A stretch of DNA of 52,177 nucleotides from an uncultured Pelagibacteraceae bacterium (GTDB taxonomy: Bacteria > Pseudomonadota > Alphaproteobacteria > Pelagibacterales > Pelagibacteraceae), in assembly GCA_902519465.1 (NCBI GenBank), contig CABYJW010000005.1, positions 1 through 52,177 on the forward strand, given 5' to 3'. Within the stretch, counting starts at the first letter, position 1, and the number at the start of each line of letters is the position of its first letter. The position numbers and the translations under genes are program-made. Shown here piece after piece: positions 21,944 to 29,737 of this stretch. The notes below the pieces were generated by a model. The model did no database searches and was not told where the DNA came from. It worked only from the letters and a program-made list of their open reading frames with translations.

Positions 21944-22464
21944 TATAAATCTATTGTGTCTTGCAATCTTTTTTTAAAATAATCTTCATACGATTTATTA
22001 CATGTAATTAAATATTTGTCCTCAAGATTGTAAATTGTGCAGTCAATTCTTGCTATTAAGGTCTGTGCGATTGTCAGAGGAGGAAATTTTTTCGATCTAA
22101 AATCAAAATGTGTCAGCTTATTTAAATAATCTTTCATTTTATCACCACTAAATTCAAAATAAACCTGCCCGTAAGAACAATCTGAAGCTAACAGTTCATC
22201 ATTCGAATTCATAGTATTTATCATTCTTGATAACGCCTCTTCCTCTTTATTTTTTAAACAAATTAAACTCCATTGATCAAAAGACTGTTTTGCAAAAAGA
22301 TAATTCTCATTACTTATCATCCTTAAATTATCCTTAGGCGGCAAAAGAGATATTTCTCCGTTCACAGTTTCTGCAAATCGACCATCACCTTTTCCTCTTA
22401 AAAGAATTTGTTGAAAGTCTCTTTGAGCAATATAAATTCCATCTCCCGAAAAAGTTCTTGTCAT
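21943..22464 (-). CDS. soxG: Sarcosine oxidase gamma subunit
   Basis: Smallest folate-side subunit of heterotetrameric sarcosine oxidase; its role is structural. The 173 residues begin MTRTFSGDGIYIAQRDFQQILLRG and contain DCSYGQVYFEFSGDKMKDYLNKL and a C-terminal TLIARIDCTIYNLEDKYLITCNKSYEDYF, patterns seen in SoxG (GcvT-fold relatives). The family is poorly conserved, so linkage to soxA with a 4-base overlap is a main support. The stop overlaps the DUF2237 start. Confidence 0.88.
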   Translation of the reverse strand: MTRTFSGDGIYIAQRDFQQILLRGKGDGRFAETVNGEISLLPPKDNLRMISNENYLFAKQSFDQWSLICLKNKEEEALSRMINTMNSNDELLASDCSYGQVYFEFSGDKMKDYLNKLTHFDFRSKKFPPLTIAQTLIARIDCTIYNLEDKYLITCNKSYEDYFKKRLQDTIDL

Positions 22465-25415
22465 GATAGCAGCCTTTTGTTTTCAGGATCAAAAAAACTG
22501 GGCTTAACTACTTCAACAGGTATAACATTCATATTTGAAGTTGAAACGTATATTTGACTACCTATTTTTCTGTTACCCTCTTTTATTAAAGCCATTGCAA
22601 TTGAATGATTTAAAGTCGGACTAAAATAACTCGAAGTAACCTGTCCCAACATTTTAATTGGCTTATCTATTTGTGATGGAATATTTTTGTCCTCTATAAC
22701 GTGTTGCCCTTCTTCAATACCATACGATTTATCTACTGGGACCAGACCAACTAATTGCTTCCTATCACCTTTAATAATATCTGATCTTGTTAAGGATCTT
22801 TTGCCGATAAAATCCTTTTTTTTCTTCCCTATCATCCAATTTAAATTTAAATCTAACGGTGTAACCGTTCCATCAGTTTCCTGACCAACAATTATATAAC
22901 CCTTTTCGGCTCTTAATAGATGCATAGTTTCTGTTCCATACGGAACCAAATCAACATCTCTGCTGTAATAAAAGATTCTCTCCCAAAGAGTTAAAGCATA
23001 TTTTGGAGGAACATAAATTTCATAACCCTGTTCACCCGTGAAACTGGCTCTTAGAATTCTTACTTTATAATTTAAATAATCAAAAGTATTAAAAGTCATA
23101 TAAGGAAATTTATGATTGCTAAAATCAATATTATTAAACACTCTGCTTAATATAATCCTTGATTTAGGACCACTAATATTAAAAGTAGCAAATTGTTCGG
23201 TAATTGAATTTAAGTAAACATTTAAATTTGGCCATTCTGTCTGAGCGAATTCTTCCATGTGAGATAAAACATTTGCAGCTCCGCCAGATGTAGTCGTAGT
23301 AATAAAATGATTGTCATTTATTTTGCAAACAATACCATCATCTTTAACCATACCATCTTCACCAAGCATTAGCGCATATTTCGCGCTCATTGGTTTCATT
23401 TTTGTAAAACTATTTGTGTACATCATATTTACAAATTCAAGTGCGTCTTTACCTTTTATTTCTATTTTTCCAAGTGTGCTTCCATCTAAAATTCCAGCTG
23501 AATCTCTCACTTGTTTAGATTCTCTTTGCACAGCTTCATTCATGGTTTCATTTTCATATTTTTTGTAATACCAGGGCCTTTTCCACTGACCTACATCTTC
23601 AAATACTGCATTATGTTTTATGTGCCATGGGTGAATTGGAGTTTTTCTTTCAGGGTCATAAAACTCATAAGTACTCCTTCCTGCGATGGCAGAAAAACTT
23701 ACCGGGTTATATGGCGGTCTATAAGTTGTTGTGCCAACTTCAGAAACACTTTTCTTTAATAATTTTGAGACTATACCTAATGCATTTATGCTACTAATTT
23801 TTCCTTGATCCGTTCCCATGCTGTTTGTAGTAAAACGTTTTAAGTGCTCGATACGATCAAAACCTTCCCTAATCGCTTGTGTTAAATCTTTTGTTGTCAC
23901 ATCATTTTGTAAATCTATAAAAGATTTTGACCATAATGAATTATTATTGTTTTTCGTCTCCCATATCTCTTTTATATTAAATTCTTCAGAGCCATTGACC
24001 TCTATCTTAAGGTCAATATCATTTACACCATCAATGAAATTAAGTTTTTTATTAACTTCATCAATAATATCTTTAAAAATAAAATTTCCACTCACTGAGC
24101 CTAATGTAATTGTCTTTTGAAAAGATTTTTCTGGTTTAAAGGTTAAGATTTTTTCGTCCCATTTCACTAAACCTTTTGATTGAGTAAAAAGATGTATATC
24201 AGGGTTGATACCACCAGAAACACATAGCATTGAAGCTTTTATTTTTATTATTTTATTTTTTTTTGTTCTCACGCTAATATTTTTAATCCCACTGTTACCG
24301 TCACAACCTTCAATTTCTGATTTCGGATAGAAAGGAATATTATAAGCTTCTAATAAATCTAAGGTTTCTTTCTCAATTTTTTTTAAATCTCTTACATCTA
24401 CGTATGCCTTTGGCATGCTTTTACGATCTATCAATAATTTTAGCAGACTAAAAGTTGAGGAATTATTTGTAAAAATAACAGGATTATTATCAGGGACAAC
24501 ATCGTATCTTTGAATATATTTTTCAAAAGATGCAGCAAGCATTACACCAGGCAAGTCATTATTTCTAAAAGATAAAAATCTTTCGATATGCCCATTCGCT
24601 AAAATAGTGTTTTCAGTTCTAATTTTATGAAGAACTAACTCAGATTTTTTATTATCAGGTTCAATTCCAACTGACCTGTCTTCAATTGCAGTAAGATGAT
24701 TACTGTAATTATAAGTGGTTACTGTTGTATTTTTTAAAATTTTTATATTGGCTGAATTTTTTAATAGCCTTTCAGTTTTTTCAAGCCATTCCGAAGTTTT
24801 CTGATCATTAACTGACTTAACTTTGTTTGAATTTTTTAGAATGCCTCCAAGCTCATTTTCCCTTTCAATAAGCAATACATCTTTATCTGTTCCTGCTAAT
24901 TTTTTAGCTGCGAGCAAACCGGATAAACCACCGCCTACTATCAAAATATCAATATTATGATGAAGATGTGTACTTTTTGATTTAAATTCACGAGGAGGTT
25001 TGCCCAATCCAGCTGTTCTTCTTATTAATGGTTCATAAAGATTTTTCCAAAAACCTTTCGGTCCCATGAATGTTTTATAATAAAAACCTGCTGAAAATAT
25101 TGGAGATAAAAGGTTATTAACTGAGCCAAAGTCCGTTTTAAGCGAAGGCCAACGGTTTTGGCTTTTAACGACCATTCCCTCGTAAATTTTTTTAACTGTA
25201 GCTCTTACATTTGGCTCATTATATTCATTTATTATCTGTACCAGAGCATTTGGCTCTTCTATTCCACAAGTATAAATACCCCTTGGTCTATGATACTTAA
25301 AACTTCTTCCAACAAGTTTTACATTATTTCTTAATAGAGCAGAGGCAATTGTATCACCCTTGTTACCACCATATCTCTTTCCATCAAATTTAAAATAAAT
25401 TTTATTATCAGTCAT
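22461..25415 (-). CDS. soxA: Sarcosine oxidase alpha subunit
   Basis: Large subunit of the tetrameric enzyme that converts sarcosine, THF and O2 to glycine, methylene-THF and H2O2. The 984 residues show the N-terminal 2Fe-2S-ferredoxin-like domain (FDGKRYGGNKGDTIASALL, 10-28, with RPRGIYTCGIEEPN), the NAD(P)/FAD-type Rossmann motif IVGGGLSGLLAAK (159-171), and a C-terminal folate-binding GcvT-like domain from about 590, including TSGGAANVLSHMEEF, SFTGEQGYEIYVPP and RAEKGYIIVGQETDGTVTP. Order soxB-soxD-(SHOCT)-soxA-soxG is the usual one except for the inserted small gene. No frame break is seen over almost 3 kb. Confidence 0.95.
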   Translation of the reverse strand: MTDNKIYFKFDGKRYGGNKGDTIASALLRNNVKLVGRSFKYHRPRGIYTCGIEEPNALVQIINEYNEPNVRATVKKIYEGMVVKSQNRWPSLKTDFGSVNNLLSPIFSAGFYYKTFMGPKGFWKNLYEPLIRRTAGLGKPPREFKSKSTHLHHNIDILIVGGGLSGLLAAKKLAGTDKDVLLIERENELGGILKNSNKVKSVNDQKTSEWLEKTERLLKNSANIKILKNTTVTTYNYSNHLTAIEDRSVGIEPDNKKSELVLHKIRTENTILANGHIERFLSFRNNDLPGVMLAASFEKYIQRYDVVPDNNPVIFTNNSSTFSLLKLLIDRKSMPKAYVDVRDLKKIEKETLDLLEAYNIPFYPKSEIEGCDGNSGIKNISVRTKKNKIIKIKASMLCVSGGINPDIHLFTQSKGLVKWDEKILTFKPEKSFQKTITLGSVSGNFIFKDIIDEVNKKLNFIDGVNDIDLKIEVNGSEEFNIKEIWETKNNNNSLWSKSFIDLQNDVTTKDLTQAIREGFDRIEHLKRFTTNSMGTDQGKISSINALGIVSKLLKKSVSEVGTTTYRPPYNPVSFSAIAGRSTYEFYDPERKTPIHPWHIKHNAVFEDVGQWKRPWYYKKYENETMNEAVQRESKQVRDSAGILDGSTLGKIEIKGKDALEFVNMMYTNSFTKMKPMSAKYALMLGEDGMVKDDGIVCKINDNHFITTTTSGGAANVLSHMEEFAQTEWPNLNVYLNSITEQFATFNISGPKSRIILSRVFNNIDFSNHKFPYMTFNTFDYLNYKVRILRASFTGEQGYEIYVPPKYALTLWERIFYYSRDVDLVPYGTETMHLLRAEKGYIIVGQETDGTVTPLDLNLNWMIGKKKKDFIGKRSLTRSDIIKGDRKQLVGLVPVDKSYGIEEGQHVIEDKNIPSQIDKPIKMLGQVTSSYFSPTLNHSIAMALIKEGNRKIGSQIYVSTSNMNVIPVEVVKPSFFDPENKRLLS

Positions 25416-25420
25416 ATTTT

Positions 25421-25630
25421 CTAATTAAGTATTTTCTTTTTTTCCTTTTCATATTCATATCCGGTGATTACACCATCTTTATAAAGGTCCAGAAGCTTTT
25501 TTAATTGATCAGAAACCTCACTACTTATGACTTTATTAGTTTCTATTTCATTAGATTTTTCTGCGCTTATATTTACAGAGAACAAAGAGAAAAAAAACGT
25601 GATTAAAAAAAGGGTTTTAATTTTTTTCAT
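25421..25630 (-). CDS. Small exported protein with C-terminal SHOCT-like motif
   Basis: The 69-residue protein has a signal peptide (MKKIKTLFLITFFFSLFSVNISA, cleavage likely after residue 23), a short polar linker and a C-terminal segment DQLKKLLDLYKDGVITGYEYEKEKKKIL (about 40-68), which matches the SHOCT pattern of a short helix, a D/G-x-I-T/S turn, and E/Y-F-x-x-x-K-x-x-L. SHOCT motifs are short oligomerisation or tethering elements. Its ATG overlaps the soxD stop (ATGA) and soxA starts 5 bases after its stop, so it is fully embedded in the sox operon. I know of no role for such a protein in sarcosine oxidase. Confidence 0.72.
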   Translation of the reverse strand: MKKIKTLFLITFFFSLFSVNISAEKSNEIETNKVISSEVSDQLKKLLDLYKDGVITGYEYEKEKKKILN

Positions 25631-25980
25631 AGTTTTTTCACCGTAAAATTTCCAGACCCAACATCGGGTTCTCCTGATGGAGATTTAAGTGTATTTTGGA
25701 ATTTTTTAATTGGTGGTGGTGTCTCTCCAATTTTGTAAGTTAATAATATTTCATCAGTTGATGTGTTTCTGACGGCATTAAACCATTTTTTACATCCGTG
25801 CGTGTGAACCCAACGTTCATAATAAATTCCTTTTGGATTCGATCTTATAAAAACATATTCAGCCCATTCTCTATCAGTTACTTGTTCTGGATTTTTTGGT
25901 CTTGTGACGTGCGCTTCACCACCATTTGTGAATTCAGACTGATCTCTTTCTCCACAGTAAGGACATTTAATTAAAAGCAT
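25627..25980 (-). CDS. soxD: Sarcosine oxidase delta subunit
   Basis: Zinc-binding small subunit of heterotetrameric sarcosine oxidase. The 117 residues have the family start MLLIKCPYCGERDQSEFTNGGEAH with CPYC at 6-9, then RSNPKGIYYERWVHTHGCKKWFNAVRNT, whose His and Cys complete the zinc site. The C-terminus is a longer polar tail. The gene begins 2 bases after the soxB stop and overlaps the start of the small SHOCT-like gene by 4 bases. Confidence 0.95.
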   Translation of the reverse strand: MLLIKCPYCGERDQSEFTNGGEAHVTRPKNPEQVTDREWAEYVFIRSNPKGIYYERWVHTHGCKKWFNAVRNTSTDEILLTYKIGETPPPIKKFQNTLKSPSGEPDVGSGNFTVKKL

Positions 25981-25982
25981 TT

Positions 25983-27233
25983 TTAATGTGCTACAGCCGC
26001 AGCCCCGTGTTCATCAACCAATCTTCCACTCACAAAACGCTCCAAACTAAAAGGAGCATTTATTGAGTGGGCTTTATCTTTTGCTATTGTATGTGCAAAT
26101 AGATTTGCACTTCCAGGAGTCGCTTTAAATCCACCGGTTCCCCATCCACAATTAAAATACAATCCTTCAACTTCGCATTTACTTATTATTGGACTAGCGT
26201 CTGGACAAATATCAACGATACCACCCCATTGACGTAACATTTTCATTTTTCCAAAAATTGGATAGAGTTCAACGATTGACCTAATTGTATCTTCAATAAT
26301 ATTGTAACCTCCTCTTTGTGTGAATGAATTATAACCATCAGTACCTGCACCAATAACTAATTCACCTTTATCAGATTGACTCACATAGGCATGAACTGCG
26401 TTTGACATCACCACGGTATTAATAACTGGTTTAATAGGTTCAGAAACTAATGCTTGAAGTGGTTTACTTTGAAGCGGTAATCGTACTCCCGCTGTTTCAG
26501 CCAAAACACTTGTGTGACCAGACGCAACTACTCCAACTCTTTTTGCTCTTATAATTCCTTTAGTGGTTTCTACACCATGAACTTTTCCATTTTTTGTTCT
26601 AATTTTTTTTACTTCACAATTTTGAATTACATCTACGCCTAACTCATCAGCTCTCATTGCATATCCCCAAGCAACTGCATCATGACGAGCAACACCACCT
26701 CGAGGCTGAAAAGAAGCTCCAAGAACTGGGTACCTACAATTATTAATATTCATTATTGGCACAAGTTTTTTAATTTCTTTAGGGTCTGCCCAGTGAGAGT
26801 CAATTCCGTTGAGTTGATTTGCGCTCACTCTCCTTTTTATTTCTTTAATGTCATGTTCGTTATGGGCTAGGTTTAATACTCCTCTTTGACTGAACATCAC
26901 ATTATAATTTAATTCAGTTGATAAATTTTCCCACAATTTTAAAGAATGGTCGTAAAGATGTGCGCTCTCATCCCAAAGATAATTTGATCTGATAATTGTT
27001 GTATTCCGACCTGTATTACCGCTTCCAAGCCAACCTTTTTCTATAACCGCAATATTTTTTAATCCGTGTTCTTTAGCCAAATAATAAGCAGTACCCAAAC
27101 CGTGACCACCGCCACCAACAATTATTATATCGTAAAATTTTCTTGGCTCAGGGCTACGCCACATTTTTTTCCAATTTTCATTATTTGAAAAGGAGTTTTT
27201 GATTATATTAAAGATGGAATATTTTTTTTTCAC
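25983..27233 (-). CDS. soxB: Sarcosine oxidase beta subunit
   Basis: Catalytic subunit that oxidises sarcosine at non-covalent FAD and carries covalent FMN. The 416 residues fit the family. The start [15 protein letters not shown] with the [18 protein letters not shown] segment is characteristic, then [22 protein letters not shown] (37-57) for [19 protein letters not shown] (71-85), and [16 protein letters not shown] with His184 at the FMN attachment position. The C-terminus holds [15 protein letters not shown]-like flavin contacts. It heads the minus-strand operon; no glyA or purU gene, common in other sox clusters, is present. Confidence 0.96.
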
Positions 27234-27803: not shown

Positions 27804-29099
27804 TTACGCAGCTAATGCTTGTTTAATATCAGCAATAATATCGTCTGGATGTTCTATTCCAATTGAAAGTCTAACATATCCAGGTGTAACACCAGCTTCA
27901 GCCAATTGTTTTTCATTTAGCTGACTGTGAGTCGTAGACGCCGGGTGAATTGCTAAACTTCTTGCATCACCAATATTTGCAACGTGGTAAAGAAGTTTTA
28001 AATTATCTATAAATTTAGCTCCAGCCTCTATACTCCCCAAATCCATACCAACTAAAGATCCATAACCACCTTTCATGTATCTTTTGGCTCTATCTCTTAT
28101 TTCTCCCTGATGATTTGTTGGATAAATTACATTCTTAACTTTTTTCTCCGACTCTAAAAATTTGACAACTTTTTCTGCGTTTGCGCAGTGTTGTTTCATT
28201 CTTAGTGCTACGGTTTCTAAGCCTTGAATAATTTGAAATGCATTGAAAGGAGATAGTGGAGCACCAAGGTCTCTTAAAAGAACAACTCGTGCTCTTACTG
28301 CAAAAGCAACATTAGCTCCTGTCATTTTTGGAACGTCTCTTCCCCAAATAGCACCATTGTAACTTGGATCAGGCGTGTTGAACAAAGGTTGTCTCTTGGC
28401 ATTTTTTACCCAGTCAAATGTTCCTCCGTCAACAATTATTCCGCCAATAGAAGTACCGTGTCCTCCAATATATTTTGTAAGCGAATGCATTACTATAGTT
28501 GCGCCATGTTCAAGCGGCTTACAAATTACTGGTGCAGCAGTATTATCTATAATTAAAGGTATCCCGTGTTTTTTTCCAATATCAGCAACTTCTTTAATTG
28601 GAAACACTCTTAAGTATGGATTAGGACAAGACTCACCGTAGTATGCTCTTGTCTTTTCATCAGTAAGCTTCTCAAAGTTTTTTGGATCCTTTGGATCAGC
28701 AAATCTAACTTCGATACCTTGCATGCTTAATGTATTTTTAAATAAGTTAACTGTTCCACCATATAAATCAGTTGAGGAAACAATATTGTCTCCTGCTTGA
28801 CATACATTTTGTACACAGAAAGCAGAAGCTGCTTGACCCGAACCAACTGCAACTGCAGCTAATCCACCCTCTAAAGCTGCAACTCTTTTTTCAAGTATAT
28901 CGCAAGTGGGATTATTAATTCTTGTGTAAATATTTCCAGCCTCTTTAAGTCCAAATAAATTTGCCGCCGTTTTAGCATCTTTAAATTGGTAAGACGTAGT
29001 TTGATAAATAGGAACCGCTACAGCAGTCGTTGCTGGATCGCTTCTATATTCACCACCATGAAGACCTATAGTCTCTGGATTTTTTATTTTATCAGCCAT
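27804..29099 (-). CDS. metY: O-acetylhomoserine sulfhydrylase (aminocarboxypropyltransferase)
   Basis: PLP enzyme that makes homocysteine directly from O-acetylhomoserine and sulfide (it may also use methanethiol). From the ATG at 29099 it has 431 residues and begins MADKIKNPETIGLHGG. PVPIYQTTSYQF-like and NIYTRINNPT (57-65) segments, GSGQAASAF, and the PLP-lysine Lys209 in MHSLTKYIGGHG are those of the Cys/Met-metabolism family, MetY branch. The frame runs back to 29153, but the AAGGAG at 29106-29111 and the SAM-V aptamer fix the start at 29099. Expression should be switched off by SAM through the two riboswitches upstream. Confidence 0.94.
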   Translation of the reverse strand: MADKIKNPETIGLHGGEYRSDPATTAVAVPIYQTTSYQFKDAKTAANLFGLKEAGNIYTRINNPTCDILEKRVAALEGGLAAVAVGSGQAASAFCVQNVCQAGDNIVSSTDLYGGTVNLFKNTLSMQGIEVRFADPKDPKNFEKLTDEKTRAYYGESCPNPYLRVFPIKEVADIGKKHGIPLIIDNTAAPVICKPLEHGATIVMHSLTKYIGGHGTSIGGIIVDGGTFDWVKNAKRQPLFNTPDPSYNGAIWGRDVPKMTGANVAFAVRARVVLLRDLGAPLSPFNAFQIIQGLETVALRMKQHCANAEKVVKFLESEKKVKNVIYPTNHQGEIRDRAKRYMKGGYGSLVGMDLGSIEAGAKFIDNLKLLYHVANIGDARSLAIHPASTTHSQLNEKQLAEAGVTPGYVRLSIGIEHPDDIIADIKQALAA

Positions 29100-29105
29100 T
29101 TTTTT

Positions 29106-29161
29106 CTCCTTTTTTAGTACTTCGACGAAAGTCAGGCGTACAATATAGTTCAAATGCCTGG
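29106..29161 (-). promoter_or_regulatory. SAM-V riboswitch aptamer overlapping the metY ribosome site
   Basis: Read on the minus strand, CAGGC (29160-29156) pairs with GCCTG (29137-29133), enclosing ATTTGAACTATATTGTAC. GTAC in that loop (29141-29138) can pair with GTAC further on (29120-29117) to form the pseudoknot, followed by TAAAAAAGGAG, in which the last six bases are the Shine-Dalgarno site of metY (29111-29106). This matches the SAM-V consensus known from marine alphaproteobacteria (H-type pseudoknot, core shared with SAM-II). SAM binding would hide the ribosome site and block translation. Confidence 0.85.
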
Positions 29162-29180
29162 CTTTAATTTACGTACTCGT

Positions 29181-29209
29181 AAAAAAAAACCACCGACTAA
29201 AGCGGTGGT
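29181..29209 (-). terminator. Rho-independent terminator between the two SAM aptamers
   Basis: On the minus strand a stem CCACCG/CGGTGG (with one more A-T pair) and a 7-base loop are followed by nine T residues (29189-29181). It lies right after the SAM-II aptamer and before the SAM-V aptamer and metY, so it can only act as an attenuator of metY. The stem arm and loop contain CGCTTTAG (29204-29197), complementary to the 3-prime end of the SAM-II core, giving a plausible antiterminator. Confidence 0.85.
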
Positions 29210-29220
29210 CTCGAAAGATT

Positions 29221-29270
29221 CGCTTTAGCGGATTTTGTAAAGCGCTCGCAATTTGTATTAAATCAGCGCT
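29221..29270 (-). promoter_or_regulatory. SAM-II riboswitch aptamer
   Basis: Minus-strand reading starts AGCGCT-GATTTAA, continues to ATTGCG-AGCGCT and ends GCTAAAGCG. The P1 stem is AGCGCT (29270-29265) with AGCGCT (29246-29241); GCG (29249-29247) can pair with CGC (29230-29228) for the pseudoknot. GATTTAA and GCTAAA are hallmark SAM-II core bases. It begins about three bases after the expected transcription start, and leads directly into a terminator, so it should control transcription elongation into metY. Confidence 0.88.
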
Positions 29271-29279
29271 AAAAATCAA

Positions 29280-29309
29280 ATTATATTAGATTTAACCTAA
29301 ATAAGTCAA
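29280..29309 (-). promoter_or_regulatory. metY: Promoter of the metY riboswitch leader
   Basis: On the minus strand TTGACT (29309-29304), an 18-base spacer and a perfect TATAAT (29285-29280). The predicted start near 29273 places the SAM-II aptamer at the very 5-prime end of the transcript. It is one of the best sigma70-type matches in the window. Confidence 0.75.
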
Positions 29310-29362: not shown

Positions 29363-29737
29363 ATGAAAGATAATTGGAATAATAATTTAACACCTGAACA
29401 AAATTATATTTTAAAAGATGAAGGTACGGAACCACCGGGCTCAAGCCACTTAAATCAAGAAAAGAGAAATGGTGACTATCATTGTGCTGGATGTGGCACC
29501 AAATTATTTAGCTCAGATATGAAATATGAAAGTGGCTCTGGATGGCCATCTTTTTTTTCATCTTTACCAGGTGTTTTTGAGACTAAAACTGACACACATA
29601 TTGGATACGAAAGAACTGAATATCATTGCAAAAAATGTGGTGGCCACCACGGCCATATTTTTGAAGACGGTCCGAAACCTACTGGTAAAAGGTTTTGTAA
29701 TAACGGGTTATGCCTTATATTTAAACCTAAAACTTAA
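29363..29737 (+). CDS. msrB: Peptide-methionine (R)-S-oxide reductase
   Basis: Repairs oxidised methionine (R-sulfoxide) in proteins using thioredoxin-type reductants. The 124 residues have the structural zinc pairs CAGCG (about 39-43) and CKKCGGHHGHIFEDGP (about 88-103), GSGWPSF in the substrate pocket, and the catalytic Cys in RFCNNG near the C-terminus. The usual Asn-Ser after the catalytic Cys reads Asn-Asn here. AGGAATTAAT precedes the ATG. It is transcribed away from metY, with which it shares the 29100-29362 gap; no riboswitch is visible on its side. Confidence 0.94.
   Translation: MKDNWNNNLTPEQNYILKDEGTEPPGSSHLNQEKRNGDYHCAGCGTKLFSSDMKYESGSGWPSFFSSLPGVFETKTDTHIGYERTEYHCKKCGGHHGHIFEDGPKPTGKRFCNNGLCLIFKPKT

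Follow-up and report, generated by a model that had tools for sequence, protein, structure and literature searches.

A two-stage SAM-responsive leader proposed for metY in a marine Pelagibacteraceae bacterium, and a candidate compact SAM-II-like element in Pelagibacter

Introduction

The leader of metY in a marine SAR11 bacterium (Pelagibacteraceae) raises the question of whether one metabolite gates the same gene twice, at transcription and again at translation. The tandem arrangement of SAM-II and SAM-V is already known in SAR11. The bhmT tandem was listed in PMC2704228, and 149 SAM-II/SAM-V tandems, named bi-mechanism riboswitches, were counted in 2022 (PMC9481103). A sequence-only reading of the metY leader had arrived at a core interpretation that is the published one. 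It also placed such tandems in Pelagibacter, which is right (PMC2704228, PMC9481103, PMC11508383), except that the tandem in HTCC1062 precedes bhmT, not metY. Here, we describe the metY leader, its conservation in relatives, and a related compact element found upstream of other SAM-V aptamers.

Results and Discussion

Organization of the metY leader

The leader lies on the minus strand of the window (the whole stretch of 52,177 nucleotides that was analysed), where promoter, SAM-II, terminator hairpin, SAM-V, Shine-Dalgarno (SD) sequence and metY ATG follow one another in the 5' to 3' direction. The individual features are as follows.

29280–29309, minus strand: sigma-70-type promoter (-35 TTGACT 29309–29304, 18-nt spacer, -10 TATAAT 29285–29280; 11 of 12 consensus matches)
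29219–29272, minus strand: SAM-II-type aptamer, predicted H-type pseudoknot (P1, 29270–29265 with 29246–29241; P2, 29251–29247 with 29230–29225)
29221–29231, minus strand: antiterminator 5' strand CCGCUAAAGCG (overlaps the SAM-II P2 3' strand; pairs with 29204–29193, -16.5 kcal/mol)
29193–29204, minus strand: antiterminator 3' strand CGCUUUAGUCGG (terminator loop and part of both arms)
29181–29209, minus strand: intrinsic terminator, hairpin 29209–29189 and nine U 29189–29181 (hairpin search, duplex energies and folding)
29103–29168, minus strand: SAM-V riboswitch aptamer (RF01826, 68.9 bits, cutoff 41, model positions 1–66 of 66)
29106–29111, minus strand: SD AAGGAG of metY, assigned by sequence, within the SAM-V match, with the ATG (29099) six bases on
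27804–29099, minus strand: metY, O-acetylhomoserine sulfhydrylase, 431 aa from ATG (TIGR01326, 563.7 bits, cutoff 495.1)

These features bear out the anatomy drawn from the letters, namely a TTGACT-18-TATAAT promoter, a SAM-II aptamer at the 5' end of the predicted transcript, a T-tailed terminator between the aptamers, and a SAM-V pseudoknot that reaches into the metY SD, AAGGAG. The promoter is also found in 42 of 44 tandem leaders, where its -10 element ends 10–15 nt upstream of GAUUU. In the window, transcription is predicted to start near 29273, just before the SAM-II aptamer. A TTG-started ORF of 449 aa (start 29153) was rejected as metY, as it would begin inside SAM-V and bypass the SD.

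The divergent neighbour of metY is msrB (29363–29737, plus strand). Directly 3' of metY is an inverted repeat of 17 pairs (27796–27760, minus strand), which is terminator-like with a poor U tail and precedes a DUF4864 gene and sarcosine oxidase genes (25983–27233, 25627–25980, 22461–25415). The nearest named relatives are uncultured Pelagibacteraceae single cells (AG-430, AG-435 and others).

The SAM-V aptamer

The RF01826 match (E = 3e-9 over the whole window) is the only RNA match at gathering level in the 52 kb, and the 770-kb assembly (63% complete) has no other SAM-V. Its 3' end overlaps the metY SD, with AAGGAG (29111–29106) inside the match. SAM binding has been shown for SAM-V relatives, and an SD-occlusion mechanism has been proposed for metY (PMC6061858).

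Variants of SAM-V leaders were also observed elsewhere. Seven solo, diverged SAM-V-like leaders before metY (L193, L198, L199, L200, L203, L204 and L205) carry CACAAAA in place of CACUAAA; this loss of a conserved pocket U possibly reflects an altered ligand or decay. In another genus (L056, L061, L182, L321 and L323), a short ORF lies between SAM-V and the regulated gene, with a second SD in some cases. A leader peptide or translational coupling is possible there.

The SAM-II aptamer

The SAM-II core (29270–29219) reads AGCGCU-GAUUUAAUACAAAUUGCG-AGCGCU...CGCUAAAGCG. The Rfam comparison, suggested in the sequence-only reading as a check on both aptamers, gave a divided answer: SAM-V passes (68.9 vs 41 bits), and SAM-II falls below both cutoffs, with 22.4 vs 36 bits for RF00521 (E = 0.005 in a 351-nt search) and 19.0 vs 44 bits for RF01726. 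A curated Rfam score is a detection threshold and not a biological property, and the RF00521 cutoff was passed in only 1 of 24 SAR11 genomes searched. The bhmT tandem SAM-II of G011, whose coordinates match those given for HTCC1062 in PMC2704228, scores 15.5 with RF00521, lower than the window copy. The bhmT SAM-II has a reported Kd for SAM of 1.2 µM (PMC5069961). Because a relative with a reported Kd also fails, the cutoff was not taken as decisive against SAM-II, even though a missing covariance-model hit is literally what the earlier reading had named as refuting it. Other low-scoring Rfam matches (Phe_leader, GcvB, freshwater-2 and others) were taken as chance.

The pocket bases GAUUU, AAUUGC and GCUAAA are all present in the window copy; some relatives have GAGUUA in place of GAUUUA. 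Judged by position, all contact bases named in PMC11508383 (U10 and U11; A20, U21 and U22; U46, A47 and A49 in bhmT numbering) are in place. Across 19 sequences, 100% of the cells of P1 and P2 are paired, compared to at most 61% in slid controls; this reflects conservation more than covariation, because most P1 and P2 pairs never vary. A P2a helix was not seen in the window copy.

Model R2 was trained on 19 tandem SAM-II domains, a set that did not include the metX SAM-II. It recovers L172, the P. ubique metX SAM-II in the HTCC1062-like genome, at E = 3.9e-8. Three further SAM-II-like leaders are also recovered (E = 7e-10 to 2e-7), of which two precede metX-like genes. The match of R2 to the window itself reflects relatedness to the R2 seed. 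We regard the identity of the element as settled because the bhmT SAM-II with a reported Kd scores lower, R2 finds the metX SAM-II, and the contact bases are present. By its sequence, the window element is thus a SAM-II-type aptamer, which would bind SAM as its family does.

The terminator and antiterminator

The terminator hairpin (ACCACCG-CUUUAGU-CGGUGGU) is followed by nine U. Nine terminator-like matches were found in the 900-nt region vs 0.6 expected from shuffles, and the hairpin of the metY leader has the most pairs. The 3' strand of SAM-II P2 also serves as the 5' strand in an 11-bp antiterminator: CCGCUAAAGCG, consisting of this P2 strand and its tail, is complementary to CGCUUUAG(U)CGG in the loop and arms of the terminator. 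The antiterminator and terminator folds are mutually exclusive. In 40 unique tandem leaders, the antiterminator has a mean energy of -16.4 kcal/mol (mean z -4.4 vs shuffled targets), and the terminator a mean of -11.7 kcal/mol.

Folding predicts the antiterminator at 0.98 in a window RNA that ends just before the U-run, and the terminator at 0.91 once four U have been made. Since the two folds are exclusive and the U-run tips the balance, SAM on SAM-II should favour termination, as expected from the family. In the 19-sequence alignment, no compensatory double change was found in the antiterminator (94.3% of cells paired, with 385 of 500 shuffles as high), and its support is therefore energetic and positional. 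Per-sequence duplex energies were also used because MAFFT misplaces the 3' arm of the terminator in some rows.

Conservation of the tandem in relatives

SAM-II and the terminator precede SAM-V in all 18 genomes of the same genus that have a SAM-V match. Among the 80 nearest metY genes on named contigs, 64 have the SAM-II/terminator/SAM-V leader, 62 of them by pattern, plus L274 and L325, whose imperfect SAM-V was read by eye; the upstream aptamer of L325 is in the compact form described below. The other 16 lack the triple leader by pattern. In those that were read, metY lies behind another gene, which is bhmT-like in at least one case. In G090 (L244), SAM-II and a terminator, without SAM-V, stand before a bhmT-like gene upstream of metY. 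The SAM-II/SAM-V tandem is thus an ordinary metY leader in several Pelagibacteraceae lineages, of which the window offers a fully readable example.

A proposed two-stage switch and its alternatives

We propose, with a probability of about 0.9, that the leader is a two-stage SAM-responsive switch that turns the same gene off at transcription and then at translation. That both aptamers bind SAM, and which way each responds, is inferred from their families. RNA polymerase would start just before the SAM-II aptamer. At high SAM, the SAM-II pseudoknot would lock CGCUAAA into P2, blocking the antiterminator and allowing the nine-U terminator hairpin to form, so that transcription would end ahead of SAM-V synthesis. 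At low SAM, the antiterminator would form and the polymerase would read through, giving an mRNA that still carries SAM-V. In such a read-through mRNA, SAM-bound SAM-V would fold over AAGGAG and block ribosome binding. The idea that one metabolite gates metY twice is in agreement with both the anatomy (SAM-II P2, antiterminator and terminator, then SAM-V over the SD) and the relatives. The sharper or deeper shut-off suggested in the sequence-only reading is a published proposal (PMC9481103), and no synergy between the tandem aptamers was seen in vitro (PMC11508383).

It is improbable, in our estimate, that only SAM-V regulates metY, with SAM-II as a relic and the hairpin as a constitutive attenuator or transcript end. 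The SAM-II score under both Rfam cutoffs and the silence of the SAM-II domain in the full-length bhmT RNA (PMC11508383) would fit such an arrangement. However, the pocket and both SAM-II helices are kept in relatives, the antiterminator is energetically beyond chance in 40 leaders, and antiterminator folding itself predicts the published silence. Differences in P1 and P2 lengths between the aptamers, and affinities about 100-fold apart in bhmT (1.2 and 120 µM; PMC5069961), could suggest that the two bind different ligands or form an allosteric pair instead of acting as independent SAM switches. The named SAM-contact bases, however, are identical in both aptamers and the in vitro work found no synergy, which leaves this a very unlikely reading. 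We give almost no weight to the terminator being unrelated to metY and marking where an upstream transcript, or an antisense one, ends. Such hairpins do also end genes, and msrB lies on the other side, but msrB is divergent, so that no upstream gene ends at the terminator, and in relatives the hairpin's position between the two aptamers hardly varies.

The bhmT linker and the published silence of SAM-II

The two-stage reading bears on a published observation. In the full-length bhmT tandem, SAM-II did not respond to SAM in vitro and was reported to be blocked by the linker, whose strongest response runs from C68 to C110 (PMC11508383). The words terminator and antiterminator are absent from the main text of that paper. 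Its poly-U at 82–90 fits our bhmT leader (L049) with an offset of one and, with this offset applied, C68 falls within the 3' strand of the bhmT antiterminator. Folding of the full-length bhmT RNA predicts the antiterminator at a probability of about 1.0. The antiterminator would explain the 'linker inactivation', an explanation that Poiata et al. 2009 may already give: SAM-II would be silent in the full-length RNA because an RNA at equilibrium is past the decision point and folded in the ON state. The antiterminator thus provides a testable reason for the published silence.

Under sulphur limitation, the mRNA of bhmT rises 33.8-fold, that of metY 7.1-fold and that of mmuM 6.1-fold (PMC5069961, Table 1). 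The larger rise of bhmT, the tandem gene of HTCC1062, is consistent with attenuation, but could have other causes.

A compact SAM-II-like element in Pelagibacter

The metY and mmuM leaders of HTCC1062 have been described as SAM-V only (PMC5069961). We collected 139 unique SAM-V leaders from the order, drawn mainly from the stronger SAM-V matches. A SAM-II pattern is present upstream in 42 and a compact pattern in 94; of the three with neither, two (L105 and L123) have SAM-II and a terminator on reading. The upstream aptamer is absent, by reading, in 9 of 24 further, mostly weak SAM-V matches, which rules out that every SAM-V has an upstream partner.

The genus of G011 carries the compact element, UGCCGAUUUG-AUCC-UAUUGCGGGC-n-ACUGCUAAAAAGGA, in its metY and mmuM leaders, about 55–62 nt upstream of SAM-V. 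Examples are L050 (G011:C1:1005761-1005809), L051 (G011:C1:732858-732906) and L002–L031, among others. Its pairing consists of P1 (GCC/GGC, 3 bp), P2 (UUGCG/C(U)GC(U)AA, 5 pairs) and P2a (UCC/GGA, 3 bp). In this structure, 98.2% of cells are paired, and none of 500 shuffles is as high in paired cells or covariation score, a count that is not a probability because the structure was read off these same, related sequences. Both sides have changed in three pairs, namely the terminal pair of P2 (G-C/A-U/U-A), one pair of P2a (U-A/A-U) and one of P1 (G-C/A-U). A model of the element (R1) matches in 127 of 397 genomes. In the first 24 genomes searched, every match that was read, or that has a SAM-V match next to it, is in a metY, mmuM or metX leader. 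In G011, an Rfam search of the metY and mmuM leaders with E as high as 5 allowed gave no match at the compact element.

An extended -10 element (TGnTAnAA/T) is found within 24 nt upstream of the compact element in 82% of leaders, compared to 0–5% in neighbouring windows. In a slightly looser form, it ends 10–11 nt before GAUUU in 77 of the 78 leaders that have one. The P1/L1 strand of the compact element can also pair with the linker in a competing helix (mean -10.5 kcal/mol, mean z -3.5); on reading, mmuM leaders retain this helix in other registers. L236–L240 are mmuM leaders with the compact aptamer alone and no SAM-V; in L236 and its like, the competing helix has 8 bp (AUUUGAUC:GAUCAAAU). 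No terminator was seen in the Pelagibacter compact-element leaders, and an ORF search by eye found no conserved start codon after the compact AGGA.

Intermediate leaders, in G389 (L156/L189) and AG-439-A05 (L325), have the compact form followed by an intrinsic terminator, SAM-V and metY, and tie the compact form to SAM-II. In metX-like leaders of another genus, the compact form stands directly before the gene. R2 gives weak matches (E = 0.02–0.4) at the position of several compact elements, and R1 reaches the metX SAM-II (E = 0.0009–0.05).

The Pelagibacter metY and mmuM leaders, the HTCC1062-like ones included, probably open with this compact SAM-II-like aptamer, placed where the transcript is predicted to start and in competition with the P1/L1:linker helix. 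Most of these SAM-V leaders would then sense SAM twice, with a second regulatory step that uses no terminator; in some mmuM leaders, the compact aptamer stands alone. The element is apparently unreported, though Poiata et al. 2009 may note it, and is best regarded as a candidate SAM aptamer. Should it bind SAM, two sensors would be present in leaders so far taken to hold a single SAM-V. It could then also account in part for the rise of metY and mmuM under sulphur limitation at the mRNA level and not just in protein. Translation-coupled mRNA decay could be another cause of this rise.

Comparison with known systems

The window SAM-II resembles the SAM-II and SAM_alpha families (RF01726 and RF00521; P. 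ubique metX) in its H-type pseudoknot, its pocket bases and the cross-detection by R2. It differs in scoring under the Rfam cutoffs and in having no evident P2a helix.

The downstream aptamer is comparable to the metY SAM-V of HTCC1062 (RF01826; crystal structure in PMC6061858), with a full-length model match, SD overlap and the same regulated gene. The two metY leaders differ upstream, where the HTCC1062-like leader has a compact SAM-II-like pseudoknot without a terminator, whereas the window has a classical SAM-II.

The leader as a whole can be compared to the bhmT tandem of Pelagibacter ubique (Poiata et al. 2009; PMC2704228, PMC11508383, PMC9481103), as the sequence-only reading had suggested. 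The regulated gene is different (bhmT there, metY in the window), the window lineage is another genus of Pelagibacteraceae, and the P2 pair next to UUGC is probably A-U in bhmT and G-C in the window. Both share the order of the parts, the terminator after SAM-II, SAM-V over the SD, and an antiterminator, which in bhmT (L049) uses GCUAAAGCG.
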